This document shows, piece by piece, positions 2,439 to 60,530 of a stretch of DNA of 64,000 nt. Every line of letters starts with the position of its first letter. Positions within the stretch are counted from its first letter, which is position 1. Source of the DNA: a virus; IMG/VR virus record IMGVR_UViG_3300034073_002585, positions 62,001 to 126,000 of that record, one strand, 5' to 3'. A program made the translations under genes and the position numbers. The notes under the pieces were generated by a model. That model had not been told where the DNA came from. It did not search any database and saw only the letters and a program-made list of their open reading frames with translations.

Positions 2439-2502
2439 TGTATTTATTTTTTGTTACGACTTTTGAAAAAAGACTTGTTTTGTTTGCGAAACCTAGTAGG
2501 AT
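2439..2502 (+). promoter_or_regulatory. 16-bp conserved element (copy 1) and downstream promoter
   Basis: The element TGTATTTATTTTTTGT is at 2439-2454. TTGTTT (2475-2480), 16 bp, TAGGAT (2497-2502) is the best promoter match, 20 bp beyond the element; an alternative -35 TTGCGA starts at 2484 (29 bp). Confidence 0.55.
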
Positions 2503-2552
2503 TGGAGTATCCAATCAGGGACGAAATAGAAGTAGTCCCAAAAAGGGGAGAG

Positions 2553-2891
2553 ATGACGAAAGTCACCAAAGCCCAGCCAGTCGGCTCAAAGACTGACACG
2601 AAGGTAACTCGTAAGTTCGTTACCAAACTCAACGAGTTCGTTGAGGTTCGTTCTCTACAAAACCTCTACAAGAAGTTGGCTGACGAGGGTCGTGCCGAAA
2701 TCTTCAACGAGGTGGGGGAAGCCGAGCAGGTGCTAATCCACAATGGCGTTCGGGTTGCGATTATCAGTAAGGTAACCAAGCCCGACATTGACAAGAAACT
2801 TCTCGCCGAGAAGTATCCAGAGGCTTTTGCCGCTTGCTCAATCACTCGTGACGAGTTCCACATCAAGACAGCAACTCCGACCAAGAGATAA
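2553..2891 (+). CDS. Small phage protein, paralogue of the protein at 10109-10474
   Basis: 112 aa; the ATG at 2553 follows AAAAGGGGAG, which decides the start over further upstream in-frame codons. The C-terminal half (an NGVRV strand, then a DKKLLAEKYPEAF segment and AACS) aligns by eye with the protein at 10109, which has HGVDV, DEEKLAKDFPEAYEAC. Both look like helical N-termini with a conserved C-terminal module ending in the K-L-x-x-x-(Y/F)-P-E-A pattern. This type is widespread as a hypothetical phage protein; I do not know its function. It is a single-gene unit between its own promoter and terminator. Confidence 0.75.
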   Translation: MTKVTKAQPVGSKTDTKVTRKFVTKLNEFVEVRSLQNLYKKLADEGRAEIFNEVGEAEQVLIHNGVRVAIISKVTKPDIDKKLLAEKYPEAFAACSITRDEFHIKTATPTKR

Positions 2892-2899
2892 CCAGAGAG

Positions 2900-2928
2900 G
2901 GGGTTGGGCGAAAGCCCAGCCCCTTTTC
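2900..2928 (+). terminator. Intrinsic terminator
   Basis: GGGGTTGGGC, GAAA loop, GCCCAGCCCC, then TTTT: a strong 10-bp stem with a tetraloop directly after the stop codon. Confidence 0.85.
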
Positions 2929-2940
2929 TCAAAATGCCGT

Positions 2941-2992
2941 TGTATTTATTTTTTGTATGACTTTTGACTCGCCGAGGCGTGCCGTAGAAAAT
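2941..2992 (+). promoter_or_regulatory. 16-bp conserved element (copy 2) and possible promoter
   Basis: TGTATTTATTTTTTGT at 2941-2956. TTGACT (2964-2969), 17 bp, GAAAAT (2987-2992) is a possible promoter only 7 bp beyond the element, so the usual spacing is not kept here. Confidence 0.45.
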
Positions 2993-3040
2993 GTCAGAGG
3001 TTAGTAGTAAATTGGTAGTAACAAGAAAGGGGGTTCTCAA

Positions 3041-3382
3041 ATGAGAGAGCCAGTAGCACTAGACCCAGTAGGCGTGGCAGGACTTAGCCTCACCATGATT
3101 GGAGTTCTCGTTGAGCAGTATGTAAGAGAGGGTTACGCCGACCCAACCATGTATCGGGCATTGAAAGGGGCAGGCGAACTAGCGGAACACCTACGGGAGT
3201 GGGTTATGTCAGAAGCACCAGACGAAACGGAACTGCTTGACGGCGTGACCGACTTACTTATGAACCTAGAACTTACCGCTATGGAGTGTGGCGAGGTCGT
3301 AAACCGAATCATTGACGAACACGGCTTGCCTGTTGATAAAAAGTCGTGGACACGGCTTGACATTGACGGCACGCAGGACTAA
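3041..3382 (+). CDS. Hypothetical acidic protein
   Basis: 113 aa; ATG at 3041 follows AAGAAAGGGGG. Predominantly helical, acidic, with a hydrophobic N-terminal stretch (VGVAGLSLTMIGVLVEQYV) that may pack rather than span a membrane. It shares its transcription unit with the ClgR-like regulator that begins 11 bp after its stop. No family recognised. Confidence 0.7.
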   Translation: MREPVALDPVGVAGLSLTMIGVLVEQYVREGYADPTMYRALKGAGELAEHLREWVMSEAPDETELLDGVTDLLMNLELTAMECGEVVNRIIDEHGLPVDKKSWTRLDIDGTQD

Positions 3383-3392
3383 GGTGGTAGGT

Positions 3393-3686
3393 ATGAAGTT
3401 CTATCAAGCACTCGGCGAGGTAATCAGAGAGCAACGGCTTGCCAAAGAGATGACCCTTCGTGATGTAGCCCAGACGGGTTATGTTTCTATGGGACACCTG
3501 TCAGATGTGGAGTGTGGACGGAAAGAGGGTTCTTCCCAGTTCATTCACGCAGTTGCTAACGGCATAGGCATAGAGCCTCACGAACTAATTTTGAAGGCAG
3601 GTTTCAGAATGGCAGACCTGACCATTCCAGATACACCAGAAAAACTTTTATTGGGCGATTCGCAATTCGAGACAGCCAGACTCTAG
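3393..3686 (+). CDS. XRE-family regulator resembling ClgR (Clp gene regulator)
   Basis: 97 aa; start ATG 3393 after AAGGTGG, not the further upstream in-frame codons that would overlap the preceding gene. The helix-turn-helix spans about residues 5-60: TLRDVAQTGYVSMG, then HLSDVECGRKEGSSQ. The SxGYLSEVERGxKExSSE signature is characteristic of ClgR regulators, which in Actinobacteria activate clpP/clpC and related proteostasis genes. Known ClgR proteins carry an alanine/valine-rich C-terminal degradation tail; this one ends ETARL, so it may be more stable. It could act on host clp promoters or on phage promoters; the sequence cannot separate these. Confidence 0.7.
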   Translation: MKFYQALGEVIREQRLAKEMTLRDVAQTGYVSMGHLSDVECGRKEGSSQFIHAVANGIGIEPHELILKAGFRMADLTIPDTPEKLLLGDSQFETARL

Positions 3687-3703
3687 AAGTCTGAAACCCA
3701 AAG

Positions 3704-3735
3704 ACCCTAGCGAGTGGAAACGCTAGGGTTTTTGC
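3704..3735 (+). terminator. Intrinsic terminator
   Basis: ACCCTAGCG (3704-3712) pairs with CGCTAGGGT (3721-3729), followed by a T tract. Confidence 0.85.
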
Positions 3736-3759
3736 ATTTCCAAATTTTCTTGTTTGGCG

Positions 3760-3775
3760 TGTATTTATTTTTTGT
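3760..3775 (+). repeat. 16-bp conserved element (copy 3)
   Basis: Exact TGTATTTATTTTTTGT upstream of the DUF3846 gene. A weak promoter (TTGATG at 3793, TAGAGT at 3819-3824) follows, but spacing is poor. Confidence 0.7.
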
Positions 3776-3873
3776 TTGGCTTCCAATCGCTTTTGATGAA
3801 AATGTCTGCCAATCCTGATAGAGTTTTCTTGTTGGGAGTTCCAAGTGTGAACTACAACAGAAAGGGGTAGCAG

Positions 3874-4221
3874 ATGAGCAAGTCTGCTTTTTTGATTCGA
3901 GAGGATTTTTCTTTCGAGCGTTTGGAGTTAGAGGGCAACACCTTGAAGGTGTTACAGAGTGCCGTTGATGGCTTGATTCAACCTGTTGATTTGAGCGACA
4001 GCCTGACTGTCTGGGTAAATGAAGAGGGGCTATTCAGAAATGATTTTGATGTGAACCTTTTTGCTACTGCTATTTATCACCAAGCATTTCCGACTGCGGA
4101 TAACCCACTTGTAGGCCCTGCCGTCTTTACAGGTGGTTCTGATGATGAGGGCAACACCCTCGGATTGAGCGAGCAGATGATTGCCAACCTAGCGACATGG
4201 GCTCTGGCTCTCGCCAAGTAA
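3874..4221 (+). CDS. DUF3846 family protein
   Basis: 115 aa; ATG after AAAGGGG. Contains the DUF3846 pattern: LKVLQSAVDGLIQPVDL, then VWVNEEGL, a helical segment, and a GPAVFTGGSDDEG turn. DUF3846 proteins are small, common in actinobacterial phages and plasmids, and of unknown function. Single-gene unit between an element and a terminator. Confidence 0.8.
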   Translation: MSKSAFLIREDFSFERLELEGNTLKVLQSAVDGLIQPVDLSDSLTVWVNEEGLFRNDFDVNLFATAIYHQAFPTADNPLVGPAVFTGGSDDEGNTLGLSEQMIANLATWALALAK

Positions 4222-4237
4222 CACAGAGGTAAGACTG

Positions 4238-4264
4238 CCCCCGCTTCGGCGGGGGTTTTCTTTT
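4238..4264 (+). terminator. Intrinsic terminator
   Basis: CCCCCG, loop CTTCGG, CGGGGG then TTTTC and a T-rich run. Confidence 0.85.
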
Positions 4265-4287
4265 TTCCGTTTTTTGTGCGGGTAGCG

Positions 4288-4363
4288 TGTATTTATTTTT
4301 TGTATGAAGTTTTTATGAAATGCCGACAATAAACTTGATAATGTCAGAGTGCCGTGCTTTACT
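4288..4363 (+). promoter_or_regulatory. 16-bp conserved element (copy 4) and promoter
   Basis: Element at 4288-4303; TTGATA (4335-4340), 17 bp, TTTACT (4358-4363). There are 31 bp between element and -35. A GCCGACA box lies at 4322-4328. Confidence 0.55.
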
Positions 4364-4389
4364 AGAGGTATCCAAGAAAAGGAGAGGGA

Positions 4390-4632
4390 ATGTTCAGTAA
4401 CTATCCAGAGGGTTCAATGCGAGGCTCGGGTATCTATTCGGTTGAGGTGTCTTATGACGCTTTCGATTGCGAGAACGAGGAGTGCGGACAGCACAACGAG
4501 GCTGGCGATACTGCGACTGATGACTGGGGACACTACACGATTGAGTGCGAGTTCTGCGGAGTGACCTACACAGAGAGCAGTCTGGCACAGGACAAAGATG
4601 ATTACTACGCCGACTATTCCGAGGACAGGTAG
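4390..4632 (+). CDS. Small zinc-ribbon-like protein
   Basis: 80 aa, very acidic. Cysteines occur as CxxxxC (CENEEC) and CEFC, consistent with one zinc site. ATG at 4390 after AAGGAGAGGG. First of three consecutive small cysteine-rich genes. Possibly an adaptor or inhibitor of a host protein, but no family is recognised. Confidence 0.7.
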   Translation: MFSNYPEGSMRGSGIYSVEVSYDAFDCENEECGQHNEAGDTATDDWGHYTIECEFCGVTYTESSLAQDKDDYYADYSEDR

Positions 4633-4640
4633 GGGCTAAA

Positions 4641-4781
4641 ATGGCAACGCAATACGAATACGAATGTCGCTCTTGTGGAAGTGCGGTTTGGCTAGACCAA
4701 GAACAGCACGACCACTACGAGAGCAACAAAGAAAAGGGAAGCGGGTTCACAATGCCAAAGTGCGCCGACTGCTGGAAATAG
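4641..4781 (+). CDS. 46-aa CxxC/CxxC mini-protein
   Basis: A short open frame from ATG 4641 with CRSC near the N-terminus and CADC at the C-terminus (CADCWK stop), separated by a His/Glu-rich stretch: the spacing of a single small zinc ribbon. It starts 8 bp after the preceding stop with AGGGGCTAAA as ribosome site. Coding is supported by the paired CxxC motifs and tight gene spacing. Confidence 0.65.
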   Translation: MATQYEYECRSCGSAVWLDQEQHDHYESNKEKGSGFTMPKCADCWK

Positions 4782-4792
4782 GGAGAGGAAAA

Positions 4793-4993
4793 ATGACAAC
4801 AACGACCCGCTACTGCTGGAACTGCGAGGAAGAACTAAACGCCGAGAACACAGGTTCTTATGGTGGGTTCGATTCAAGCAACCACTACTATTCAAGTATC
4901 TATGGCGGAGATGGCGACACAGCGCCGTTCACAAAGTGCGACTCTTGTTTTGATGCCGACAACGACAGATATCTAGAGAGCCTTTACGAGTAG
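4793..4993 (+). CDS. Small zinc-ribbon-like protein
   Basis: 66 aa; ATG 4793 follows GGGAGAGGAAAA, chosen over an upstream in-frame codon that would overlap the preceding mini-gene. CWNC near the N-terminus and CDSC near the C-terminus form a likely zinc site around a Gly/Ser/Tyr-rich centre. Third member of a small cysteine-rich operon. Confidence 0.7.
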   Translation: MTTTTRYCWNCEEELNAENTGSYGGFDSSNHYYSSIYGGDGDTAPFTKCDSCFDADNDRYLESLYE

Positions 4994-5009
4994 GCAATAC
5001 CAAAGATTT

Positions 5010-5055
5010 ACTGCCCAATAATTCTGTGCGGGACACAGAGTTGGGCAGTTTTTTA
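5010..5055 (+). terminator. Intrinsic terminator
   Basis: ACTGCCCAA (5010-5018) pairs with TTGGGCAGT (5041-5049), followed by TTTTTTATT. Confidence 0.8.
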
Positions 5056-5091
5056 TTGCCGATTTTTGGCGACTATTTTTTGTTCTTCGAG

Positions 5092-5166
5092 TGTATTTAT
5101 TTTTTGTTCCAGGCTGCCGAAACTTTTTACTAATGATTTGACTTCGCCGACCAAACCTAGTATCTT
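5092..5166 (+). promoter_or_regulatory. 16-bp conserved element (copy 5) and promoter
   Basis: Element 5092-5107; TTGACT (5138-5143), 17 bp, TATCTT (5161-5166). Thirty bp separate element and -35. One of the clearest promoters in the series. Confidence 0.65.
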
Positions 5167-5206
5167 TGTAAGTGTCAGAAAGACACAGAGTGAAAGGAAT
5201 CCAGAA

Positions 5207-5476
5207 ATGGAAACGACAAAAGAAGTAATCAAGGCTAGACTCATGGAGATTGAGGAGCGCCAAAAAGAACTGGCACAGAGTCGCCGAGAGATGGCACTAG
5301 ACATGGCTGTTGAAGTTGGGACAGACGAGCTAGTTGGTATCAACCTTGACTCACTATCAAAGTGGGCAAGAAGAATTAGGAAAGTCAATACAGAGATGAA
5401 AGTTTTGGCAGACGAGCGCCGTTGGTTGAGAGAGAGCAGACGCCGACTCAACCCTTGCGAGTGCGACTGCCACTAA
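5207..5476 (+). CDS. Coiled-coil protein with Cys-rich C-terminus
   Basis: 89 aa; the start at 5207 (GAAAGGAATCC upstream) is preferred because longer forms would overlap the promoter. Two basic/acidic heptad helices (about 10-35 and 50-80) are joined by a short hydrophobic turn, and the protein ends CECDCH, a possible metal-binding tip. No family recognised. Confidence 0.7.
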   Translation: METTKEVIKARLMEIEERQKELAQSRREMALDMAVEVGTDELVGINLDSLSKWARRIRKVNTEMKVLADERRWLRESRRRLNPCECDCH

Positions 5477-5496
5477 GGTTAGTCCCCCCTAACCCC

Positions 5497-5535
5497 CGCC
5501 CCCGTCAGAGAAATCTGGCGGGGGTTTTCTTTTTG
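5497..5535 (+). terminator. Intrinsic terminator
   Basis: CCCCCGTCAG / CTGGCGGGGG stem with an AGAAAT loop, followed by TTTTC and more T. Confidence 0.8.
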
Positions 5536-5565
5536 TCGTTCGTTGAATTTTTCATTGAGAGCTGT

Positions 5566-5581
5566 ACAAAAAATAAATACA
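5566..5581 (-). repeat. 16-bp conserved element (copy 6, inverted)
   Basis: ACAAAAAATAAATACA is the exact reverse complement of the element. The next gene is still rightward; its likely -10 TATACT is at 5641-5646 and the -35 region about 36 bp beyond the element. No leftward gene is visible. Confidence 0.7.
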
Positions 5582-5672
5582 AGTAGGTAGCACAATAATT
5601 TTTGCTGCCGTGTTTCTTTTGTTTTTCTTCTTTTTACTGCTATACTTGATGTAATCAAGAAAGGGGGACACA

Positions 5673-5972
5673 ATGTCCACAAGCACCACCACCGCCCGCA
5701 ACGAGTTTCTTTCCGCCGTATGCGAGCCACTACGCACCATCACTAGCGAGAACCTCACCAAGAGCGCATGGGTAGCTGGAGTTGAAATCATTGCTCTGGC
5801 AAATCGCCTTGCCGACCTTGAGGTTTCCGTAGAGCTTCTAGAGAACGAAATCAAGCTAGGCAACCTCCACTTCGCCGTTGATGGTCACAACTGGAGCGAC
5901 TACGCAAAGGTTTACAACAACAACTTTGTGGAACTGTGCCAGTTGCTACGAGCAAGAAGGCTTGCTAAGTAG
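5673..5972 (+). CDS. Hypothetical helical protein
   Basis: 99 aa; ATG follows AAGAAAGGGGG. A Ser/Thr-rich N-terminus then helices (EIIALANRLADLEVSVELLENEI). No family recognised; single-gene unit. Confidence 0.7.
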   Translation: MSTSTTTARNEFLSAVCEPLRTITSENLTKSAWVAGVEIIALANRLADLEVSVELLENEIKLGNLHFAVDGHNWSDYAKVYNNNFVELCQLLRARRLAK

Positions 5973-5986
5973 TATCCAAAACACCA

Positions 5987-6017
5987 AGCCCCCTGTTTCG
6001 GCAGGGGGTTTCTTTTT
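5987..6017 (+). terminator. Intrinsic terminator
   Basis: CCCCCTG, loop, CAGGGGGT followed by TTCTTTTT. Confidence 0.85.
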
Positions 6018-6048
6018 GCCGTGACGAGAAAGTCTCCCTCTTTCTGTG

Positions 6049-6122
6049 TGTATTTATTTTTTGTCCAGGACTTCAACATGCCGACAACTTTTTGTCAAAA
6101 TGTCTCTTATGGGTGCTATGCT
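6049..6122 (+). promoter_or_regulatory. 16-bp conserved element (copy 7) and promoter
   Basis: Element 6049-6064; TTGTCA (6092-6097), 19 bp, TATGCT (6117-6122). A GCCGACA box is at 6080-6086. Confidence 0.5.
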
Positions 6123-6151
6123 CTAAGTAACCAAAGAAAGGGGACAACCAA

Positions 6152-6328
6152 ATGGTTGGAGTAGGGCAGCTACTAAGTAGCTTGAATTTGAATGTGATTG
6201 CGAGCGCCGTAGAAGGCGAGACAACAGTTCCTTGGACTCTTTTGTTAGAAGATGAGGAATTCCTAAAGATAGCAAAATACGCCAACACCTTACAAGAGGT
6301 TGTTGACTGGGTAAACGAGAACTACTAG
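6152..6328 (+). CDS. 58-aa hypothetical acidic protein
   Basis: A short frame from ATG 6152 directly after GAAAGGGGACAACC, ending 7 bp before the next gene. The product is acidic with two predicted helices (about residues 5-18 and 32-55). The strong ribosome site and operon spacing support it. Function unknown. Confidence 0.65.
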   Translation: MVGVGQLLSSLNLNVIASAVEGETTVPWTLLLEDEEFLKIAKYANTLQEVVDWVNENY

Positions 6329-6335
6329 GGGGTGA

Positions 6336-6539
6336 ATGATGAGCGTAAAGTATCCAGAGATTGAAGTTCAACTTTCGGGAAATGATGGAAATGCTTATGC
6401 GATTATGGGGGCGATACAGAAAGCCCTACGCCGAGCAGAGGTTCCACAACACGAAATTGAGCAATACCTAAACCAATCCATGAGCGGAGACTATGACAAC
6501 CTTTTGCGGGTTGCCATGAATTGGGTGACAGTTCACTAA
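6336..6539 (+). CDS. Conserved small phage protein (VKYPEIEVQLSGxDGNA type)
   Basis: 66-67 aa; ATG at 6336 or 6339, with GGGGGTGA upstream favouring 6339. The sequence pattern, YPEIEVQLSGNDGNAYAIMG, RRAEVPQHEIEQY, SGDYDNLLRVAMNWV, matches a small protein found throughout bacteria and phages, usually annotated hypothetical. Probably alpha/beta with one helix hairpin. Function unknown. Confidence 0.75.
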   Translation: MMSVKYPEIEVQLSGNDGNAYAIMGAIQKALRRAEVPQHEIEQYLNQSMSGDYDNLLRVAMNWVTVH

Positions 6540-6555
6540 TCAAACCAAAGACAAA

Positions 6556-6585
6556 CCCTCGCAAAGTTGCGGGGGTTTTTCTTTT
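6556..6585 (+). terminator. Intrinsic terminator
   Basis: CCCTCGCAA / TTGCGGGGG stem followed by TTTTTC and further T. Confidence 0.8.
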
Positions 6586-6613
6586 TCCCGTGATAATTTC
6601 GGCGCTCGCCGTA

Positions 6614-6679
6614 TGTATTTATTTTTTGTCTAGCTCATCAGCAACAGATTTGCGGTTTATGTGTGTGCCGTGTTAGGGT
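6614..6679 (+). promoter_or_regulatory. 16-bp conserved element (copy 8) and promoter
   Basis: Element 6614-6629; TTGCGG (6650-6655), 18 bp, TAGGGT (6674-6679). Twenty bp separate element and -35, about one helical turn less than most copies. Confidence 0.5.
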
Positions 6680-6704
6680 ATGAGTATCAAGAAAGGAGTT
6701 CCCT

Positions 6705-7091
6705 ATGGGAGCAAGAACAGTTTGGGAGATTCGGACTTATTCCGACAGGCCCTCTATTTATCTATACAGCCACTGGGGTGGCGACACTAAGTGGATTGAC
6801 ACAGTTCAAGCCTTAGAGCAAGCTAGATTCCGCTGGGATGACCCGAGTTATGGAGCAAGGATTTTCATTAGCCAGATTGTTGGAAGCCAATGGGACCTAG
6901 AAACAGGATTCGGTATCACTGCTGGAGATTCTGGAGAAGTTCCATTCGAGGAGAGCTATTTCAATGCGGTAATAGATTTCTCATCAAAGACAGTGACCCT
7001 AGGAGAGCACCTATACACTTTCGAGGAGTTTGTGTCCGCCGATGACATTACTGAACAGCTTGGCAATGAGTTCTGGGAGGTTAGCGCCTAA
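6705..7091 (+). CDS. Conserved hypothetical phage protein
   Basis: 128 aa; ATG after AAGAAAGGAG. Begins RTVWEIRTYSDRPSIYLYSHWGGD and has the ARIFISQIVG and FEESYFNAVIDF segments, a pattern I associate with a recurrent phage hypothetical protein. Likely an alpha/beta fold with aromatic strands. Its stop overlaps the next start by 1 bp, so the two are translationally coupled. Confidence 0.7.
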   Translation: MGARTVWEIRTYSDRPSIYLYSHWGGDTKWIDTVQALEQARFRWDDPSYGARIFISQIVGSQWDLETGFGITAGDSGEVPFEESYFNAVIDFSSKTVTLGEHLYTFEEFVSADDITEQLGNEFWEVSA

Positions 7092-7375
7092 TGGGTAATC
7101 TACAAGCTCAAGAAATGGCGGCGCTCACTGACCTTGACATAGCGCTAACTTGGCACCTGCGGTCGAACCACTATCCACCCGTGCCGTTGACAATGCTTGA
7201 ACCATGTAAACAAGCGATTGACGCTTACTGGGAAGATGACCTAGATAGGCAGATTGACTTGAATGGAAGTTTCTACAGGGGCGAACCTTTTGCCCCTGCT
7301 AGAGAGATTATTATCGCTCATCACCTAGACGCTTGGTGTGAGGGCGAGGAAGAGGAGTTCGACGATGCCGATTAA
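7091..7375 (+). CDS. Hypothetical protein
   Basis: 94 aa; ATG overlaps the preceding TAA (TAATG). Strongly acidic C-terminus (EGEEEEFDDAD). No family recognised. The following gene starts inside its last codons. Confidence 0.65.
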   Translation: MGNLQAQEMAALTDLDIALTWHLRSNHYPPVPLTMLEPCKQAIDAYWEDDLDRQIDLNGSFYRGEPFAPAREIIIAHHLDAWCEGEEEEFDDAD

Positions 7376-7763
7376 GGATAAGGAGAAATACAATGCTTAC
7401 ATGCGGGAATACAACAACAGAACCTATGCCCTTAGGTGTGACAAGTTCCGAGCCCAATTAGGCAACAAGTGCACAAAGTGCGAGAGCACAGATAGCCTAA
7501 ATTTCAGTGGCACCACCCCGCTAGGTAAGTCTTTTGATTTGTCGCGCCGAATGACTAGTGCACCAATGAAAGACTTGCAAGAGCTTTTTGACAACAGCAA
7601 CTACACGCTATTGTGCAACAAGTGCCTAGCAAAGCAAACCAAAGGCGTAGAGCATGGAGGAGGTATTTCTGGCGTGCGGAATTGTAAGTGCGATTTGTGT
7701 AAAGCTAAGAAAGCCGAATACATGCGGAGCTACATGAAGAAGAAACGAGCTACAATAGACTAG
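7365..7763 (+). CDS. HNH-endonuclease-like zinc protein lacking the catalytic histidines
   Basis: 132 aa; ATG 7365 follows GAGGAG and overlaps the previous gene by 11 bp. A basic MREY helix precedes CTKC (zinc pair 1), then LNFSGTTPLGKSFDLSRRMTSAPM, then CNKC (zinc pair 2); this order is that of small phage HNH nucleases, where LELDHIDP and CxxCH are expected. Here the DH pair is replaced by NFSG and the last CxxCH by CNKCLA, so cleavage is unlikely. A third CDLC motif and basic tail (RSYMKKKR) follow. Inferred role: DNA binding without cutting, or a decayed homing nuclease. Confidence 0.7.
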   Translation: MPIKDKEKYNAYMREYNNRTYALRCDKFRAQLGNKCTKCESTDSLNFSGTTPLGKSFDLSRRMTSAPMKDLQELFDNSNYTLLCNKCLAKQTKGVEHGGGISGVRNCKCDLCKAKKAEYMRSYMKKKRATID

Positions 7764-7821
7764 CCAAAGCAATGTCGCTTGGCTATTGCTAGAGATTTTG
7801 TCCCCCCTTTCTCTCTAGCAT

Positions 7822-7866
7822 GCGGGTTACAACTTTCCCCCCTTTAGTTGTAACCCGCTTTTTCTT
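7822..7866 (+). terminator. Intrinsic terminator
   Basis: GCGGGTTACAACT (7822-7834) pairs with AGTTGTAACCCGC (7846-7858), followed by TTTTTC. A 13-bp stem, one of the strongest here. Confidence 0.9.
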
Positions 7867-7897
7867 TTTTGTCGCCTGCTTTTTCTCTTCCGTTGAG

Positions 7898-7972
7898 TGT
7901 ATTTATTTTTTGTTCAACTTTAGCCACGCCGTCAAATAAAGTGCTTGACTAATTTGACAGGACTGGTAGGCT
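7898..7972 (+). promoter_or_regulatory. 16-bp conserved element (copy 9) and promoter
   Basis: Element 7898-7913; TTGACT (7945-7950), 16 bp, TAGGCT (7967-7972), then TATTACATCAG. The same TAGGCTTATTACATCAG sequence occurs at 9444. Confidence 0.65.
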
Positions 7973-8014
7973 TATTACATCAGCCAAAAGGTTGGTAAAA
8001 GGAAAGGGGACAAA

Positions 8015-8230
8015 ATGTTCACACTAAGAAGGTTCGCAGGTGCAGTAATCACCATGCCAATCGTGTTCGGTATCTATGCGGTTATCTACTTTGGTCTAGG
8101 TCTAGTAGCAAACAGCTACATGAGTATTGGACTATTCACCCAAAACCTATACGCCGTTGGATTCGGCTGGGTGATTGCGGTTACATTCGCTAAGCAGTTC
8201 TTCAACCTAATCGAAAAGCTAGGAGAGTAA
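8015..8230 (+). CDS. Small membrane protein, two transmembrane helices
   Basis: 71 aa; ATG after AAAGGGGACAA. Hydrophobic segments at about 8-32 and 40-58 flanked by basic residues. First of two consecutive membrane proteins in one unit. Early-region membrane proteins may alter the host envelope or exclude other phages; that is inference. Confidence 0.7.
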   Translation: MFTLRRFAGAVITMPIVFGIYAVIYFGLGLVANSYMSIGLFTQNLYAVGFGWVIAVTFAKQFFNLIEKLGE

Positions 8231-8232
8231 TA

Positions 8233-8385
8233 ATGGAAAACATCATTGAAGCAGTGCTACTAATCGGAGTAGCGTTCATTCCAGTAGGAGCGTTCTTGCT
8301 AGGGTTCGTAGTCGCCAAGATTTCTAATGGTGGTGGTAACCCGAAGGGTCGTCACGCCAAAGGTCGTGGCAGACACGCCAAGTAA
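8233..8385 (+). CDS. 50-aa single-pass membrane protein
   Basis: Short frame from ATG 8233, two bases after the previous stop, with GGAGAG as ribosome site. One hydrophobic helix (about residues 3-29) followed by a Gly/Lys/Arg/His-rich tail (NPKGRHAKGRGRHAK). Coding supported by tight coupling and clear TM-plus-basic-tail composition. Confidence 0.65.
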   Translation: MENIIEAVLLIGVAFIPVGAFLLGFVVAKISNGGGNPKGRHAKGRGRHAK

Positions 8386-8397
8386 GTTCCACCGAAG

Positions 8398-8429
8398 CCC
8401 CTCGCAGAAATGTGGGGGGTTTCTTTTTT
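8398..8429 (+). terminator. Intrinsic terminator
   Basis: CCCCTCGCA / TGTGGGGGG stem with a GAAA loop, then TTTCTTTTTTT. Confidence 0.75.
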
Positions 8430-8462
8430 TGCGGGCAGCCTCTTATTTTTTTGTTTTTAGGT

Positions 8463-8536
8463 TGTATTTATTTTTTGTCTAACTTCAGACACACCTGCCG
8501 ACTTGATTTGCGATTACGGGTAGGAGGCTCTAAGCT
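8463..8536 (+). promoter_or_regulatory. 16-bp conserved element (copy 10) and promoter
   Basis: Element 8463-8478; TTGCGA (8508-8513), 17 bp, TAAGCT (8531-8536). Twenty-nine bp separate element and -35. Confidence 0.55.
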
Positions 8537-8566
8537 ATTACTAAGAACAAACAGGGAGGGGCAGAA

Positions 8567-8815
8567 ATGCTAAACAGACCAGACCAAGAGGCAGAGCTAA
8601 TCTTCGCTATGGTGATGAAGCTAGGCGGAGAGCACAACTACTCAGAGCACACCAAGGCTACGATTTGGGCAGAGTGTAATCGTAACCCTAAGCTACGCAA
8701 CCTAGCGTTGCAGTATCTAGCTGGGTCAAGCAACAGGGCAGACCTAAACCTGCACCGACTACACACCGAAATTGTGGAAGTATTCTTCCCTGAAGTAAAG
8801 GAGTTGATTGGCTAA
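8567..8815 (+). CDS. Hypothetical helical protein
   Basis: 82 aa; ATG after GGGAGGGGCAG. All-helical pattern. The stop codon overlaps the ATG of the next gene (TAATG). No family recognised. Confidence 0.65.
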   Translation: MLNRPDQEAELIFAMVMKLGGEHNYSEHTKATIWAECNRNPKLRNLALQYLAGSSNRADLNLHRLHTEIVEVFFPEVKELIG

Positions 8816-8961
8816 TGGCTATCACGATTACAGAACTTACGACTTGCTACCAATGCGAGCGACCAATTATGGCACCGAAAGATTCAGTTCACCCGCTATG
8901 CGAAATTTGTGACCAGGGTTTTGACGAGTGGTTCACTAAGCAGTTAGGTATGTTCAAGTGA
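8815..8961 (+). CDS. 48-aa zinc-ribbon mini-protein
   Basis: Starts in the TAATG overlap with the preceding gene. Contains CYQC and CEIC, a classic two-CxxC zinc knuckle, with a short acidic helix at the end. Overlaps the next GTG by 4 bp (GTGA). Fourth small zinc-binding protein in the left arm. Confidence 0.65.
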   Translation: MAITITELTTCYQCERPIMAPKDSVHPLCEICDQGFDEWFTKQLGMFK

Positions 8962-9272
8962 TTGAGTTTGAGCAGAAGTATTCAACGCCGAGAGCACAAA
9001 GGCAGTATGAGCTTGAAACTCTAATCAAGCACTATGAAGTTGAGCGTGCCGAGAACATTAGGCGACTATTGTTTTCGATTGGAGTTGGTTTTGCTTATGT
9101 TCTACTTATGGGAGGAGTTATAGGTTATGGAACTTTTGCTGGAGGCTATGCCGTATTAGGTTGGCTGTCAGTAATTACAGTTGGGCTATTCATAGCTGGC
9201 GAGTTTGTGAAAGTCAATGCCGAGCTTAGTCGCCCAAACCTCAACCACCCAGAAAGATTTATACAGAGTTAG
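8958..9272 (+). CDS. Membrane protein with two transmembrane helices
   Basis: 104 aa from GTG 8958, which overlaps the preceding TGA. A charged N-terminal helix (to about 36) leads to two hydrophobic helices (about 40-60 and 66-84). No family recognised. Confidence 0.65.
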   Translation: MIEFEQKYSTPRAQRQYELETLIKHYEVERAENIRRLLFSIGVGFAYVLLMGGVIGYGTFAGGYAVLGWLSVITVGLFIAGEFVKVNAELSRPNLNHPERFIQS

Positions 9273-9294
9273 TCCCCCCTAACACCCCCCCACG

Positions 9295-9338
9295 CCCCCG
9301 CTAGGTTTCTGAACCTTTCCTAGCGGGGGTTTTCTTTT
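9295..9338 (+). terminator. Intrinsic terminator
   Basis: CCCCCGCTAGG (9295-9305) pairs with CCTAGCGGGGG (9319-9329), then TTTTCTTTT. Confidence 0.9.
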
Positions 9339-9373
9339 ACCTCGAAAGCACCTCGAATTTTTTTGCGGGAGGG

Positions 9374-9449
9374 TGTATTTATTTTTTGTCTAGTTGTTGC
9401 CGACACGATTGGTAAAAGGATTTGACAAATCTAAATAAGGTGCTAGGCT
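9374..9449 (+). promoter_or_regulatory. 16-bp conserved element (copy 11) and promoter
   Basis: Element 9374-9389; GCCGACA at 9399-9405; TTGACA (9422-9427), 16 bp, TAGGCT (9444-9449). Thirty-two bp separate element and -35. Confidence 0.7.
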
Positions 9450-9494
9450 TATTACATCAGCCAAGGTGGTTGATACAAAGAAAAGGGGTAAAAA

Positions 9495-9791
9495 GTGAAC
9501 AGCAGGACTTACGAGAACATTCAGGGGATTGGAAGCTGGGTAGCTTTCCTAGCTACTGGAGTGGCTTTCCCATTCAGCTTGGAGTATGCGGGATTGATTG
9601 ACGCAATGAGCGCAGACCTATACACCGAGGGTAGGGCGATGATGTTCCTAATCATTGTGGTCAGCATTTCAATTCTGGCAGTAACCCTAGCGGTCAAGGC
9701 TGGACTATCTTGGGCAGAATACAAGTGGTATTACCGCCAAGACCTAGCACAGAAGCTACACCGCCTAGCAGACAGGATTGCCAAGCGATGA
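9495..9791 (+). CDS. Membrane protein with two transmembrane helices
   Basis: 98 aa from GTG 9495 after AAAAGGGG. Hydrophobic helices at about 12-32 and 48-70; basic C-terminal amphipathic helix. Overlaps the next gene by 4 bp (ATGA). Similar organisation to the gene at 8958. Confidence 0.65.
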   Translation: MNSRTYENIQGIGSWVAFLATGVAFPFSLEYAGLIDAMSADLYTEGRAMMFLIIVVSISILAVTLAVKAGLSWAEYKWYYRQDLAQKLHRLADRIAKR

Positions 9792-9898
9792 AGCAACTAG
9801 CCAAGAGGGTTGAACCCTTGGTGCTGGAAGTTCTGGCAGTTGTCGTCTTGCCGAGGATTGCTGGAGCAGTAGCCAAGAGGTTAGCCAAAACTAAATAA
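9788..9898 (+). CDS. 36-aa basic amphipathic peptide
   Basis: ATG 9788 overlaps the previous TGA (ATGA), the usual coupling here. The peptide is an amphipathic or membrane-seeking helix with Lys/Arg at both ends. Short, so coding rests on the overlap and composition. Confidence 0.5.
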   Translation: MKQLAKRVEPLVLEVLAVVVLPRIAGAVAKRLAKTK

Positions 9899-9908
9899 GA
9901 AGTGAGGA

Positions 9909-9938
9909 AGCCCCCGCCAAGTGCGGGGGTTTTTCTTT
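9909..9938 (+). terminator. Intrinsic terminator
   Basis: GCCCCCGC / GCGGGGGT stem followed by TTTTCTTTT. Confidence 0.85.
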
Positions 9939-9970
9939 TGCTTGCCGTTGTGATTTTTGCTGTTGTTGGG

Positions 9971-10045
9971 TGTATTTATTTTTTGTTCAAACTTTCAACA
10001 CGATTTTGAAATAGATTTGACAACTACTAATCCACCCCCTAGACT
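9971..10045 (+). promoter_or_regulatory. 16-bp conserved element (copy 12) and promoter
   Basis: Element 9971-9986; TTGACA (10017-10022), 17 bp, TAGACT (10040-10045), then GATTACATCAG as at the two similar promoters. Thirty bp separate element and -35. Confidence 0.7.
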
Positions 10046-10108
10046 GATTACATCAGTTCAGAAGTAGAGCTGATAACCGAAACTAGATAACTACAAAGGG
10101 GAGACGAA

Positions 10109-10474
10109 ATGTCCACAATTACTAAAGCAGTAGCAAAGGCTGAGCAGGCACAGGTTGCCGAAGGCAAAGCCACCAAGCGAATCGTAGATGCGGTCAAGGA
10201 GCTAGTAGAGCTTAGGGCTGAAATCGCAGAGCTTGAGAAGCGTAAGAACTCACTTACCGCAGAGCTAGAGCAGGTGTTCGGTGTAGACAAAGAAGCCAAG
10301 ACTTCAAAGCACACCACACTTACCTACCACGGTGTAGATGTTGTTCGCTACGAATGGCGCAAGCGTAAAGGGATTGACGAGGAGAAACTAGCCAAGGACT
10401 TCCCAGAAGCTTACGAAGCTTGCTACAAGGCAGACAAGACCGTATACGGCTTGATAGTGTCACTGTTCAAGTAA
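10109..10474 (+). CDS. Coiled-coil small phage protein, paralogue of 2553-2891
   Basis: 121 aa; ATG after AAAGGGGAGACG. The N-terminal 70 residues form a long helix with heptads (VKELVELRAEIAELEKRK). The C-terminal module, HGVDVVRYEWRKRKGIDEEKLAKDFPEAYEAC, parallels the protein at 2553. Such coiled-coil plus K-L-P-E-A-Y proteins recur in phages without known function. Confidence 0.75.
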   Translation: MSTITKAVAKAEQAQVAEGKATKRIVDAVKELVELRAEIAELEKRKNSLTAELEQVFGVDKEAKTSKHTTLTYHGVDVVRYEWRKRKGIDEEKLAKDFPEAYEACYKADKTVYGLIVSLFK

Positions 10475-10482
10475 ACCGAAAG

Positions 10483-10514
10483 ACCCCTAGTCAGAAATGG
10501 CTAGGGGTTTTTTC
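10483..10514 (+). terminator. Intrinsic terminator closing the small-gene region
   Basis: ACCCCTAG (10483-10490) pairs with CTAGGGGT (10501-10508), then TTTTTT. Confidence 0.85.
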
Positions 10515-10550
10515 ATTTCTGGCACAGTGCCGTAGTTAGTTAGAGGCTAT

Positions 10551-10566
10551 ACAAAAAATAAATACA
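10551..10566 (-). repeat. 16-bp conserved element (copy 13, inverted)
   Basis: Exact reverse complement ACAAAAAATAAATACA, at the right border of the small-gene array. No leftward gene starts beside it. Confidence 0.7.
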
Positions 10567-10958
10567 GGTATGCCGTTCGAGTATTCTGCCGTGATTGCTC
10601 ATTGAGTCAGGTGAAGTTGTTATGCCGTAGATGGTTATACCCCCATAGCCCTAACCATTGAGGGGGGTGTAGCTGTCCCCTACAAGCCTTAGAGCCCGTA
10701 GCAGACCCACTCCCCAGACATAAGTAGGGCAAAGTCTCTAACCCACCACCTAAGTCTGTCTGCCGTAAAGCTGATAAATGCCCCTAAGAAGTCATAGAAG
10801 CTCTTTAAAGGGCATTGGCACTCTTATCTATGTCCCAGACAGGTAAAAGCTTTCTAGGAGCAACCTAGACCCTTATAGCTACAACTTATGAACTCACTCT
10901 TATTCGATGTCATAGCTAGACCTTGACTAGAAGCATTAGCTAGTTGTCTAGGCACTCT

Positions 10959-10988
10959 TTGACAGGTTTTTTCAATACCCCCTAGACA
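10959..10988 (+). promoter_or_regulatory. Candidate sigma70-type promoter
   Basis: TTGACA, 18 bp, TAGACA, with a C-run before the -10 as in the promoter at 10017. Transcripts would run toward the two-HTH gene at 11244. Confidence 0.5.
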
Positions 10989-11210
10989 AGACAAGGAGTT
11001 TGTCACGACATTCTTGGCAGGCATACCCCCTAGGGTATGGAAACAATCTGGAAGGCACCATTTCACAACCGCTGCCCTCTCACCCGCCAAAAGCAGTCAA
11101 CGCTAAGGTACTAAATCTTCCGCTACGGACACCCCCTCTTTTTTGAAAAACTACCCCACCCCCCTTTCTAAAATGCCCTAAAAATTTCCAAAAATTTTTT
11201 AAAAAAATAA

Positions 11211-11236
11211 ACGCCCCTATTTTTACCCCTTAAAAT
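11211..11236 (+). promoter_or_regulatory. Repeated ACGCCCCTATT site upstream of a leaderless promoter
   Basis: ACGCCCCTATT (11211-11221) lies just upstream of TAAAAT (11231-11236), which is 7 bp before the ATG at 11244. The same 11-mer recurs at 11455-11465 and 11768-11778. Confidence 0.5.
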
Positions 11237-11243
11237 AGAATCC

Positions 11244-11741
11244 ATGTCTCGAAGAACAGCACGTGGACAACAGCTTCCTCCTCACGAGGTCGAGCTCTTG
11301 AACACACTAAAAGGCGAGCAGCGCATTGAGCGCGTAGCGGCGTTATTTAACGCGGGATGGTCACTTCAGACCATTGGGGATTCACTACTGCCAAAGCACC
11401 CACGCTCCACTGTACGCTCTTGGGTTCTTCGAGCTAGCGGGCTCAACACACTAGACGCCCCTATTCCAACACCAAAATTAAAAACACCAGAAGGCGGATA
11501 CCAAAAGGTAAAACCCGAGTCTCCAGGAATCCCGCAAGGCGACCTTGAGCAAATCCGCTACCTGGCTCCTCTGGCGAGAACGTACCGTTCACGTATGTCC
11601 TCAACGTCAGCATACGCCGTTGCCAACCAGCGTCTAACCGACCTGTGCAAGCGGCTCCATGAAAATAATGTCTCAGTGCGTGAACTGGCTGAGGCTGCGG
11701 GCGTAACATACCGAGCTATGTACAAGAGGCTCTTCCTCTAG
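11244..11741 (+). CDS. DNA-binding protein with two predicted helix-turn-helix regions
   Basis: 165 aa. No ribosome site precedes ATG 11244 and the -10 box ends 7 bp upstream, suggesting a leaderless mRNA. An N-terminal HTH (about 28-58, NAGWSLQTIGDSLLPKHPRSTVRSWV) is followed by a Pro/Lys linker and a C-terminal HTH (about 140-165, VSVRELAEAAGVTYRAMYKRL). It shares architecture with the protein at 13362. The 11-mer ACGCCCCTATT lies before, inside and after the gene, so autoregulation and control of the lysis genes are plausible. A small-terminase role is an alternative because terL lies downstream. Confidence 0.65.
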   Translation: MSRRTARGQQLPPHEVELLNTLKGEQRIERVAALFNAGWSLQTIGDSLLPKHPRSTVRSWVLRASGLNTLDAPIPTPKLKTPEGGYQKVKPESPGIPQGDLEQIRYLAPLARTYRSRMSSTSAYAVANQRLTDLCKRLHENNVSVRELAEAAGVTYRAMYKRLFL

Positions 11742-11753
11742 CTCCCCGTCAAC

Positions 11754-11784
11754 TTGACAAGTAATAGACGCCCCTATTACCATA
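11754..11784 (+). promoter_or_regulatory. Candidate promoter of the lysis cassette with embedded ACGCCCCTATT
   Basis: TTGACA (11754-11759) and TACCAT (11779-11784) are 19 bp apart; the third copy of ACGCCCCTATT (11768-11778) fills the spacer, as expected for a repressor site. Confidence 0.45.
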
Positions 11785-11834
11785 CCCTCAACAACTAAAT
11801 AAGACCAAGTACTAACGCAAGGAAAGGTAGGTCG

Positions 11835-12515
11835 ATGTTAGCCAACACCAAACACCAAAAAGATAGGATGGTTTTCTCCATCCTCTCGACGCTGCTATTC
11901 ATAACGGCGTCCAGCGCAATCTATACAACCCCATCCGCCAACGCCGTTCAAGAAAAGGCATTGGAGGCAAAACTAATAACGTACACGGTTCCTGCTCCGC
12001 CAGAGAATCTATTCAACACAATCTCCACGCTTGACAGGTTTACAAACAAAATCTCTGAGCTGGAAGAAACGATTCAACAAAGAGAATCAACTATTTACAT
12101 CGTAAAAACCCGTGCCGAGCAAGACCTTGAGGCACTACGGAACACTTACGTTTCCATGGACCAAGCCCTCATCGAGCTGTCCAGTTACGTAGGCGAAACC
12201 CCCTACGGCTTCGGAGACACCCCCGCACGCTGGGACTGCTCTGGCCTAACTCTCTGGTTCTACCAGACTTACCGAGGCATAACCCTCCCACACTCCGCTA
12301 CAGCTCAAAAGCTTGGCGGTACTGAAGTAGGCGCACCTATTCCAGGTGATTTAGTTGCCTTTAGCTACGGTAACCGTTCTGAGGCGTTCCATATCGGCGT
12401 CTACGTTGGCTCAGGTATGTTTATTCACGCAAAGAACCCAAATGCTGATACAGTGCTAGAAACTTTGGATTCTTTTGTAAAAAATAATATTACAGTTGCA
12501 TATATCCGCTACTAG
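11835..12515 (+). CDS. Secreted NlpC/P60 endopeptidase (lysin)
   Basis: 226 aa; ATG after GGAAAGGTAGG. A basic N-terminus and hydrophobic segment (about 12-37, ending SANA) form a signal peptide; a coiled coil covers about 65-115; the NlpC/P60 domain begins near 118. The catalytic Cys is in RWDCSGLTLW and His in AFHIGVYVG, with a second His in MFIHAKNP. NlpC/P60 enzymes cut D-Glu-diaminopimelate bonds in peptidoglycan, and the coiled coil plus P60 plan resembles actinobacterial RipA/RipC hydrolases. Three small membrane proteins follow directly, which fits a lysis cassette. Confidence 0.8.
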   Translation: MLANTKHQKDRMVFSILSTLLFITASSAIYTTPSANAVQEKALEAKLITYTVPAPPENLFNTISTLDRFTNKISELEETIQQRESTIYIVKTRAEQDLEALRNTYVSMDQALIELSSYVGETPYGFGDTPARWDCSGLTLWFYQTYRGITLPHSATAQKLGGTEVGAPIPGDLVAFSYGNRSEAFHIGVYVGSGMFIHAKNPNADTVLETLDSFVKNNITVAYIRY

Positions 12516-13361: not shown

Positions 13362-13940
13362 ATGACAACCGACGATAAGAAATACATCAAGAAGAATCAG
13401 CAGCTTCCTACAGAGATAAAGCTCGAGTTTGACAAACTCTCTGGGAATAATGCCATGAGAGATATCCTGATTAAGAATCTAGTTGACGCTAACTGGACTT
13501 ACGAGGCAATCTCAAATGCGAGTGGACTCACTAGAGAGCGAGTTCGTCAGATTGCAAATGCTGTAGAGCGTCTGGCAGACGAGTTTCAGTATGACTTAAA
13601 TATTGAAATTCCAGAGCCGCCAGTTAAGCCTGAAAGGCCTAAAGCGCAGTACGTGGAGCCAAGTCCAGAGACTCTCAAGCGCCTACTGGAACTTCAGCCT
13701 TACGCTCAGCTAGTTAGAGCAAATGGACAGAAGTATCGCAAAGAGGCAGAAGAATACACCGCTCTGCTTAACCACGCTCACACGGTTGAGGGAGTTACCC
13801 TCTACCGACTAGCTAAGCGTCTAGGAGTTACCCACGGTGCTCTACGCTTCAGACTTGTACGTTACGGTTACAAGAAACCAGTTACTGCAACCAGTAAGGT
13901 CTACCAACCAATCATCAAAGACAACAGAGTGACGAACTAA
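13362..13940 (+). CDS. DNA-binding protein with two predicted helix-turn-helix regions (paralogue of 11244)
   Basis: 192 aa. N-terminal HTH (about 38-70, ANWTYEAISNASGLTRERVRQIA, sigma-region-4-like), a Pro-rich linker (IPEPPVKPERPK), a helical segment with PYAQLVRANGQKYRKEA, and a C-terminal HTH (about 148-172, VTLYRLAKRLGVTHGALRFRL). Same layout as the protein at 11244: two HTHs flanking a linker. Likely a phage transcription regulator or a small-terminase-like DNA-recognition protein. Confidence 0.65.
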   Translation: MTTDDKKYIKKNQQLPTEIKLEFDKLSGNNAMRDILIKNLVDANWTYEAISNASGLTRERVRQIANAVERLADEFQYDLNIEIPEPPVKPERPKAQYVEPSPETLKRLLELQPYAQLVRANGQKYRKEAEEYTALLNHAHTVEGVTLYRLAKRLGVTHGALRFRLVRYGYKKPVTATSKVYQPIIKDNRVTN

Positions 13941-48212: not shown

Positions 48213-51200
48213 AAAGCGTAGAAGAAGACTAACGTCTTTAATGAGTCGATTAGAGCAAAGAGTTAGGTCTGTTGAACTTAGGTCTACAAACTTGCTCACT
48301 AGTAGCGAGATTGCAGCTGCAGTAGAAATAGGTGTCCCATCTGATGGACCAGAAACTGTTGTCAGTGCTTCTGCTCCCTATCAATTTAAGAAAATTCAAG
48401 ATGCATACGTTTACCCTAAAGCTTTAACTGGGCTCTCGTCTGACAGAGTAGAAATCTATTTAGAAGTAGATACTGGAGCCGCAGTCGGAGACAGGATAGA
48501 GATATCTGGTATCCACTGGGCAACTAGTAGCCCAATCGATGTAACTAGTGATAACTTTACTGTTCTAGCAACTGACACCCCGCCGTGGGATGGCAGAAAA
48601 TCCTACATGCATGACCCTACTGAAGACCAGCTGAGTGGGGTAACAATAAGCAATACTTACTACTTTCAGCCCGAGACGGCTGCACCCCAGACTTGGTCAA
48701 CCAGACGAAGACTTCAAACCAGACGATTAGTTGATTCTTTTTCTGTAACAGACACCACTGTTACTTTGACTATGAATGCCACTCACCATTTTGAGGTGGG
48801 AGACGTTATATATGTAGACATATATTCTGAAGATTCTAGAGCTTATGGTGTAGATGGCCTATTTAGGGTCACTGCCGTAGACTCTACTGTAATAGAATAC
48901 GAATTAGATGCAGGAGTAGATACTCCTACTGGAGACATAACTCCTGTCACTCCAGTCTACGTTTTTCCCGTAGCCAGAGAATGGGCTCAGGACGGTTCAA
49001 TTTGGGTAGACAGTTCAAGCAATAAAACCTATTACTGGGATGGTCTTCGCTGGACTGAGTACACCCCAAGTACGCAGGTTGAAGCAGACGGTGACCCACC
49101 AGCACCTCCAACATCTTTAAGTGTTTCCAGTACCGCAACTCTAGTTGGAGCAACTTATACCCCTAGAGCAGAAGTAACTTTGTCGTGGACTGCCCCCACT
49201 CAAACAGCTGCTGGGGAAGAGTTGACAGACCTGGCTGGATACAAGATTAGGTGGAGGAGAGGTTCATCTGAAGATTGGCGTTCTGTATCAGTATTTGATT
49301 CCACAATCTCTTCATACACTTTTGCTGAAGATGTTTCTTTCCAACAAAATACTGCTTACAGTTTTCAGCTATATGCTTTTGATTCTGGACTCCAAGACTC
49401 CACTGCTGCCACAGCCTCTCATACGACAGCAAAGTCGGCGGGGGACCACTCCATCTACAAGCCTACTCTTCCTGTAGTCACTAGTAGGCTAGGTACTATA
49501 ACTGTCACATGGGACGGTAAATTAGATACTGGTAGCGGAGAAATAACTGCTCCAAGCAGCATTGTCTCACTAAACATATATATGTCTACCTCGTCTGGCT
49601 TCACGCCGTCCGAAACTAACTTATATAAAAAAGTTCGAGTATTTGGCTCCGATGGTGGATTTGATGTAATTACTGACCTCACTTATAACACCACCTACTA
49701 TTTCATAATCAGCGTTTCCGATACGGCTGGTGTAGAGAGCCCTTACTCGTCACCCCAGGTAGCGGCTCAGATTTCACCACTAGTAGACACTGACATTATC
49801 TATTCAACTCTGAATAACTGGCCCTTTGCTGACGGTCTAGTCTCCGCTAGTGCTTTGGCTGATGGTTCAGTGTCTGCAGCTAAGCTTCTAGACGGCGCAG
49901 TGGAGGCCAACAAACTCAAGGCAAATGCAGTAACTTCTTTAGCTATAGCAGCAAATGCGGTAACTGCAGCGTCAATTGCCGCTAACGCAGTAACTGGTCC
50001 TGCTATTGCTTCCTCTGCAATTACTGCAGGTAAGATTGCCGCTGGCGCTGTGACTGCTACAACCATCGCTTCAGGTGCAATAACATCAGACAAGATAACT
50101 GCAGGGGCCATTGGGGCTACTCAGATAGCAGCCGATGCAATTACTGCAGATAAAATATCTGCTGGGGCTATTGGTGCGGACGAGATAGCTGCGGGCGCGA
50201 TTATTGCTGGAAAGATTGGTGCTGATGCTGTCACTGCAGCAACAATTGCTGCTGGTGCAATTACAGCTGGAAAAATTTCAACAAATGCTATTACTGCAGA
50301 CAAAATTGAAGCAGGAGCCATTACCGCAGTAAAAATTTCTTCTAGCGCAATTACAGCAGATAAAATTGAAGCAGGAGCCATTACCGCAGCAAAAATTGCC
50401 GCTGAAGCAATCACGGCTGAAAAACTTCAAGCTGATTTAGTTTTGACAAGCTTAATAAAAACTGGACCTGCAGGGACCGCAAGAATAGAAATTAGAGGGT
50501 CTAACATAGCCAATCCTGGCATTGTTTCTTTCAAGGGCGATGGAAGTACTGCATTCAGATTGTACTCTAACGGAATATCCTATCTTGACGACATAATTGT
50601 AGATACGGCTTCAGTGTCTGGAACTATAACTGGTGGAACAATTAGAACGGCAGCTAGCGGCCAAAGAGTTCAGATGCAGGGGTCCACTAATAGCCTTAGA
50701 TTCTATAACTCTAGCGGAGCCATAGCTGGCGAAATTGAAGGACAAACTCTAGGAGCAAGATTCGATAGCTCTCTTGGTGCATTCATTCAGGTTGGTGGTG
50801 GCGTTACCATGGGCTCTGGTTCCACTACAGCGACATCCGTAAACTCTAGCGGACTAGTTTTGCTAGTTGCCCCTACCACAACATTTGCAGCAAATCTAAG
50901 AAGGCCAGATGCTGGTAACGTAATTCAGGTAGTTTCTTCTGACCTAAGAATTAAGGAAAATGTTTTTAGTATTACAGACGGAATATCTGTAGTAAATCAA
51001 TTAAATCCTGTGACATTCAACAGCAAAGTAGATGGAACTGACAAGGTTGTCTCTGGGTTCTTGGCTCAGGATGTTGCTAATATCCTACCTGTTGAAACAT
51101 ATACTGCTGTTACAGAAGTAGAGGGGACTATTCCAGACTTTGACGGGGTAAATCCCGAGGATTTTGAGGAAAGCCCGCTGTTATCTCTTAACCATATAGA

Positions 51201-51767: not shown

Positions 51768-51780
51768 AGAAAGACGCTAA

Positions 51781-54107: not shown

Positions 54108-54122
54108 AGACATAGTGACGAA

Positions 54123-60481: not shown

Positions 60482-60530
60482 TTTTGTAATTTACGGTAAG
60501 GTTTACGCATAAGCTACTAAATTTGTAGCT

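Follow-up and report, generated by a model that had tools for sequence, protein, structure and literature searches.

What does an identical 16-base word do when it is repeated between the short transcription units of a phage gene array? The question is raised by a 64,000-nucleotide stretch of viral DNA (the window; positions 62,001–126,000 of IMG/VR record IMGVR_UViG_3300034073_002585), in which the 16-mer TGTATTTATTTTTTGT, hereafter the element, is found in 13 exact copies, 11 forward and two inverted. Coordinates refer to the window unless the record is named. On computational evidence, it is fairly probable that the element is the operator of a phage-specific, probably phage-encoded regulator acting on the promoters of the array, and this regulator is probably an activator that contacts RNA polymerase. 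This large actinobacterial virus carries the tag before about 15 of its promoters, suggesting a virus-wide switch that probably turns on the small-gene set. A first-pass annotation, made from the sequence alone, had taken the element for a regulatory site of the whole left arm; this is well supported by genome-specific versions of the element at orthologous promoters in related phages and by their helical phasing to the -10 box.

The 13 copies listed by that annotation are all exact, and its statement that the rest of the window holds none is borne out, the nearest matches outside the array differing by three mismatches. Shuffled versions of the window contain on average 0.9 matches to the 16-mer (largest number 4) when up to three mismatches are allowed. 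The complete record (154,192 bp) carries 16 exact copies, all at record 59300–72566 and none elsewhere. The array spans about 13 kb and the start of the window cuts through it, leaving three copies to the left (record 59300, 59727 and 60430). A copy with one mismatch at record 56714 lies within a coding gene; a phage-coded guide RNA is disfavoured because this sole near-exact copy outside the array sits there. Among the viral_contigs stretches listed (at least 80), the 16-mer matched once per stretch. The first 24 kb of the window have no DNA match in the phages collection, and a search of Rfam gave nothing beyond a sub-threshold twister-P1 match that lies inside a gene.

The element is non-palindromic and all its 16 bases are invariant across the copies in this record. 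The aligned flanks contain little information except for a T-tract 13–18 bases upstream, which may in part derive from terminators. The annotation had placed each copy between the terminator of one unit and the promoter of the next. Twelve of the 13 copies do occupy a gap between the end of a unit and the following gene, but the last one (10551–10566) has no obvious gene after it. Likewise, terminator-like hairpins are called before six elements (4288, 5566, 6049, 6614, 8463 and 9971), but those before the remaining ones were judged by eye, and single promoter calls are weak because near-consensus promoters are fewer in the array stretch than chance would give (four found, 9.1 expected). The argument about promoters made below therefore relies on data pooled over many phages.

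Element spellings among related phages

Relatives were sought in IMG/VR with the 617-residue protein encoded at 410–2263, which found five relatives and, when used as an alignment, 80 loci. Eighteen of the 80 loci have a repeated element at the matching place, spelled as in their own genome; a further relative, L141, joined the element-bearing set later, after closer inspection. Longer stretches were taken for 21 relatives. In 18 related IMG/VR records, including that of the window phage, there are 341 exact copies, of which 331 have one orientation. Every set is confined to one equivalent array per record, about 5–27 kb long (the 5-kb array of L141 is cut by the contig end).

The spelling differs by genome. 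Besides TGTATTTATTTTTTGT, relatives use ATAGTTATTTTTTCTG, GTATCCACTTTTTTACT and others, about ten spellings in all, mostly with 10–36 copies each, and a T-tract of five to six bases is constant in all of them. Within a genome the identity of the element core is 0.95–1.00, whereas that of the flanks is near-random (0.24–0.46). Of 91 genes in 15 other phages that are orthologous to units of the window, 73 have the version of their own genome within 250 bp upstream, at 68–176 bp from the start codon. Elements kept at orthologous promoters but spelled genome by genome suggest that the sites stay put while the whole set is respelled.

The spellings do not simply track the tree of the 617-residue protein. 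L135 (87% identity) differs in spelling from the window phage, whereas the more distant L162 has an identical one; the label "element" requires five changes on this tree. The gene content of the array also varies between relatives. Three regions were read from named relatives in the phages collection, the metagenome-assembled Actinomycetia phage DSL-LC01 and Microbacterium phages including Pumpernickel and A3Wally, all of which share terminase and the VWA-type protein with the window phage; none of these regions showed such an element. The 30-kb region around the VWA-type gene of DSL-LC01 (L309) contains another repeated word, TCTAAAGATGTTATA, in about 15–17 spaced copies, which is perhaps an extended -10.

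Position relative to predicted promoters

A two-box promoter model was fitted by expectation-maximization (EM) without a position prior to 242 non-redundant sites, and yielded a TTG-type -35 and a TAnnnT -10. The distance from a fixed element base to the -10 peaks near 39, 51, 60.5, 71 and 81 bp. Periodicity at 10.5 bp is pronounced (R=0.47 for 193 confident sites, at most 0.23 in smoothed nulls), and after removal of the main peak (56–65) the remaining 91 sites keep the same phase (R=0.42, p<=2e-4 against smoothed nulls). The control distance, from the -10 to the start, shows no periodicity (R=0.08). With promoters picked by a strict pattern instead, independently of EM, R is 0.52 (n=159) and, off the main peak, 0.50 (n=69, Rayleigh p ~5e-8); the relative L136 taken alone shows no phase (R=0.08, n=7). 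Element centres fall near -62, -72, -83 and -93 relative to the predicted start, so that on predicted starts they lie near -61.5 or whole turns further upstream. Class-I activator sites have this geometry.

The features of the window are as follows; elements are exact matches, and promoters are predictions from the EM model.

410–2263, + strand: 617-residue protein, conserved inside the array and used as bait for relatives; putatively VWA-type, as assigned from its metal-site motif DISGSMGS alone
2439–2454, + strand: element, first in the window and fourth in the record; -35 TTGTTT 2475–2480, -10 TAGGAT 2497–2502; centre about -62.5; posterior 0.65
2941–2956, + strand: element; best promoter call TTGACT 2964–2969 / GAAAAT 2987–2992, uncertain
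3393–3686, + strand: ClgR-like helix-turn-helix (HTH) protein, 97 residues; candidate binder, not supported
3760–3775, + strand: element; predicted -10 TAGAGT 3819–3824; centre about -63.5; posterior 0.50
4288–4303, + strand: element; TTGATA 4335–4340 / TTTACT 4358–4363; centre about -74.5; terminator-like hairpin upstream at 4237–4256
5092–5107, + strand: element; TTGACT 5138–5143 / TATCTT 5161–5166; centre about -73.5
5566–5581, - strand: inverted element, ahead of the unit that starts at 5673; preceded by a terminator-like hairpin at 5498–5525
6049–6064, + strand: element; TTGTCA 6092–6097 / TATGCT 6117–6122; centre about -72.5
6614–6629, + strand: element; TTGCGG 6650–6655 / TAGGGT 6674–6679; centre about -64.5
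7898–7913, + strand: element; TTGACT 7945–7950 / TAGGCT 7967–7972; centre about -73.5
8463–8478, + strand: element; TTGCGA 8508–8513 / TAAGCT 8531–8536; centre about -72.5
9374–9389, + strand: element; TTGACA 9422–9427 / TAGGCT 9444–9449; centre about -74.5
9971–9986, + strand: element; TTGACA 10017–10022 / TAGACT 10040–10045; centre about -73.5
10109–10474, + strand: 121-residue coiled-coil protein with a paralogue at 2553–2891
10551–10566, - strand: inverted element that closes the array downstream; the next 680 bp or so (10567–11243) have no obvious gene and no Rfam match
13362–13940, + strand: two-HTH protein, 192 residues, conserved with and without the element; candidate binder, not supported

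Activation is favoured because the element lies upstream of the -35 and in helical phase. In the manner of class-I activators, the bound regulator would contact the alpha-subunit C-terminal domain of RNA polymerase, and it would turn on the array at a certain stage of infection. As the site is non-palindromic and almost always oriented with transcription, its reader may be an asymmetric protein, for example a monomer with two different DNA-binding domains, that recognizes the bases flanking the constant T-tract. Several observations weigh against this reading. The promoters used for phasing are predicted, not mapped; two of the 13 copies in the window are inverted, and for inverted copies the distance to the promoter has no clear pattern. 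Core promoters of element-bearing and element-free relatives are of the same low strength (-10 matches 3.83 and 3.82, respectively), so weak promoters alone are no argument for activation; more distant relatives have TATAAT-type -10 boxes. Furthermore, some repressors, such as GalR, likewise act from helix-phased upstream sites, and a repressor that contacts polymerase from upstream is possible.

An immunity-type repressor, as in cluster A mycobacteriophages, could bind all the sites and silence the array, either by inhibiting RNA polymerase through such contact or by preventing read-through, the element being its operator or stoperator. Asymmetric, oriented sites with a genome-specific consensus, 10–36 per genome, are indeed what stoperators look like (PMC6550527, PMC9283540). 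However, the elements follow terminators and precede promoters in phase with the -10, and a roadblock needs none of that phase. No repressor or integrase was recognized among the scanned proteins, no systematic search for a lysogeny module having been made. On balance we regard the repressor as unlikely. The T-tract might also act by itself, as curved DNA or through a UP-element-like contact with the alpha subunit, with no dedicated protein. Its constancy in all spellings and the helical phasing fit such a role, but neither curvature nor alpha contact would need the same 13–16 bases throughout one genome and others in the next, which leaves this explanation with very little probability.

A second word accompanies the element. 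Of 193 sites, 67 have a word similar to CGACACGCC between the element and the -35, where shuffles would give 5.6; one orientation predominates, and the commonest position is about 43 bp before the -10. Such words are frequent in element-free relatives as well, and the box appears to be a separate, shared component. CGACACGCC contains GACAC, which is the WhiA consensus (PMC3781837); a GACACG box is exemplified at record 59316–59330, left of the window. PhoB-like direct repeats (GTTACCAATTTGTTATCAAAC type), spaced at 11 bp, were seen by eye before some units, left of the window (G000 around 60460–60485) and in L147.

Respelling of the set and search for its regulator

One spelling per genome, with different spellings at the same orthologous promoters, suggests that the specificity of the protein changes between phages and that the whole set of sites would follow. 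Over the start of the array the DNA of L141 is about 95% identical to that of L137 and L142, yet its elements 1–3 read GTATTCATTTTTTCT where those two read GTATCCACTTTTTTACT, while element 4 keeps the older spelling (L141 / G019 49231–55110). At sites 2 and 3 the change does not reach beyond the element and a few tens of adjoining bases; site 1 falls in a more divergent stretch. The mixed set may have been caught in mid-switch, or it may be a recombinant or an assembly chimera. That all these phages share a family-wide regulon of 10–36 activator sites per genome, whose recognition sequence was repeatedly re-coded in concert and is half-switched in one genome, is a proposal to which we give slightly less than even weight.

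The replaced patches of L141 and the differing gene content of arrays also agree with a homology block, in which units are gained, lost or swapped through recombination favoured by the short identical stretches between them. The first-pass annotation offered this as its alternative, by analogy with the start-associated sequences of cluster K phages. It fails on the phasing to the -10, on the distance to start codons and on the respelling of all copies in each genome amid near-random flanks, and we find it scarcely credible as the explanation. A functional site might give rise to cassette shuffling as a side effect.

Against a phage-specific operator stands the fact that no candidate regulator tracks the element in gene-content screens, in comparison of recognition helices or between element-bearing and element-free relatives. 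The ClgR-like, two-HTH and WhiB (record 11538–11870) proteins proposed as binders in the first-pass annotation occur with and without the element, as do a 165-residue HTH protein and an 83-residue MerR-like protein. Differences between the recognition helices of predicted DNA-binding proteins, including both HTH proteins of that proposal, do not match those between spellings; L162, for instance, has the element of the window phage with a different ClgR-like recognition helix. Gene-content screens returned two element-linked families of small proteins, the 121-residue coiled-coil protein and a small zinc-ribbon protein, neither of which is a convincing DNA binder. The former is found in 17 of 20 element-bearing and none of 10 element-free sets, and its AlphaFold2 model resembles a coiled coil with a hairpin, at low confidence (predicted local distance difference test, pLDDT, 71; predicted template modelling score, pTM, 0.39). 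Two proteins encoded after the portal gene (951 and 618 residues) seemed element-linked but sit in a variable module of the virion region and are not candidates for the regulator. The large variable proteins after the portal at 24137–26992 and 27298–29154 match nothing in PHROGs and no Pfam family above the cut-off. In L141 a 100-residue zinc-ribbon gene immediately ahead of the array is swapped, but it is present in all groups and its product is very acidic. Comparison of protein similarity of the window phage to G001 (same spelling) and to G020 (another spelling) gave no clear candidate.

The failure of these screens to find a phage-coded factor would be expected if the phages exploited the site of a host regulator, with spellings that differ because the hosts differ. 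In the 1.3-Mb metagenome-assembled genome labelled Aquiluna that contains relative L308, however, the L308 element (up to one mismatch) is confined to the phage contig. This is mild evidence against a host regulon, although the bin may not be the host. We consider a host regulator distinctly improbable.

If the operator of a phage-specific regulator has indeed been respelled across the family, these phages preserve a natural record of a regulator changing its specificity together with all of its binding sites. How a regulator with dozens of sites changes its DNA specificity is an open question in regulatory evolution, and about ten spellings allow orthologous promoters to be compared across related phages, with L141 as a possible intermediate. 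The element and its helical phase also give a handle on the promoters of dozens of small phage genes without known function, and the different spellings could serve directly as specific and non-specific probes in a search for the regulator.

Comparison with known systems

The part of the literature covered by our search contained no description of the element, but several systems share some of its properties. The start-associated sequences of cluster K phages are asymmetric, have mostly one orientation and adjoin non-structural genes (PMC3203893). They are found 3–7 bp before start codons, at the ribosome-binding site, and thus much closer to the gene than the elements described here. Cluster O phages contain more than 30 invariant copies per genome of a 17-bp repeat of unknown function, many of them intergenic (PMC4351075). 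Unlike the non-palindromic, oriented element, these repeats are dyad-symmetric, have no meaningful orientation and lie inside genes in about a third of cases (PMC4351075).

As the target of a phage-coded activator of host RNA polymerase that works from upstream sites, the element would be comparable to those of phi29 p4, C and Ogr/delta. C (Mu) and Ogr/delta (P2/P4) are phage-coded activators of host RNA polymerase that act from upstream sites. All these proteins differ from the proposed regulator in serving few promoters, and p4 acts on inverted repeats. The sequences that p4 reads are CTTTTT tracts (PMC3100819).

The position of the element, centred at about -62 or further turns upstream with the phase kept, is like that of class-I activator sites, such as those of Escherichia coli CRP at about -61.5. 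Class-I sites are also found at further helical turns upstream. CRP sites are palindromic and degenerate and serve the host, whereas the elements are asymmetric, near-invariant and phage-specific. Enrichment of the CRP motif at -61.5 has been documented (PMC5957442).

In cluster A phages (L5, Bxb1, TipsytheTRex), stoperators are many short asymmetric sites that are oriented with transcription and have a phage-specific consensus (PMC6550527, PMC9283540), and the same is true of the elements. Unlike stoperators, the elements are T-rich, lie in one array after terminators and keep a helical register with the -10; they are not spread genome-wide in short intergenic gaps, mostly off promoters. A cognate repressor with HTH and stoperator domains was not found, no search with that repressor having been made, and the HTH proteins that the phage encodes show no correspondence with the site. 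By these comparisons, the element system would work like a set of class-I activator sites while resembling cluster A stoperators in number, asymmetry, orientation and genome specificity.

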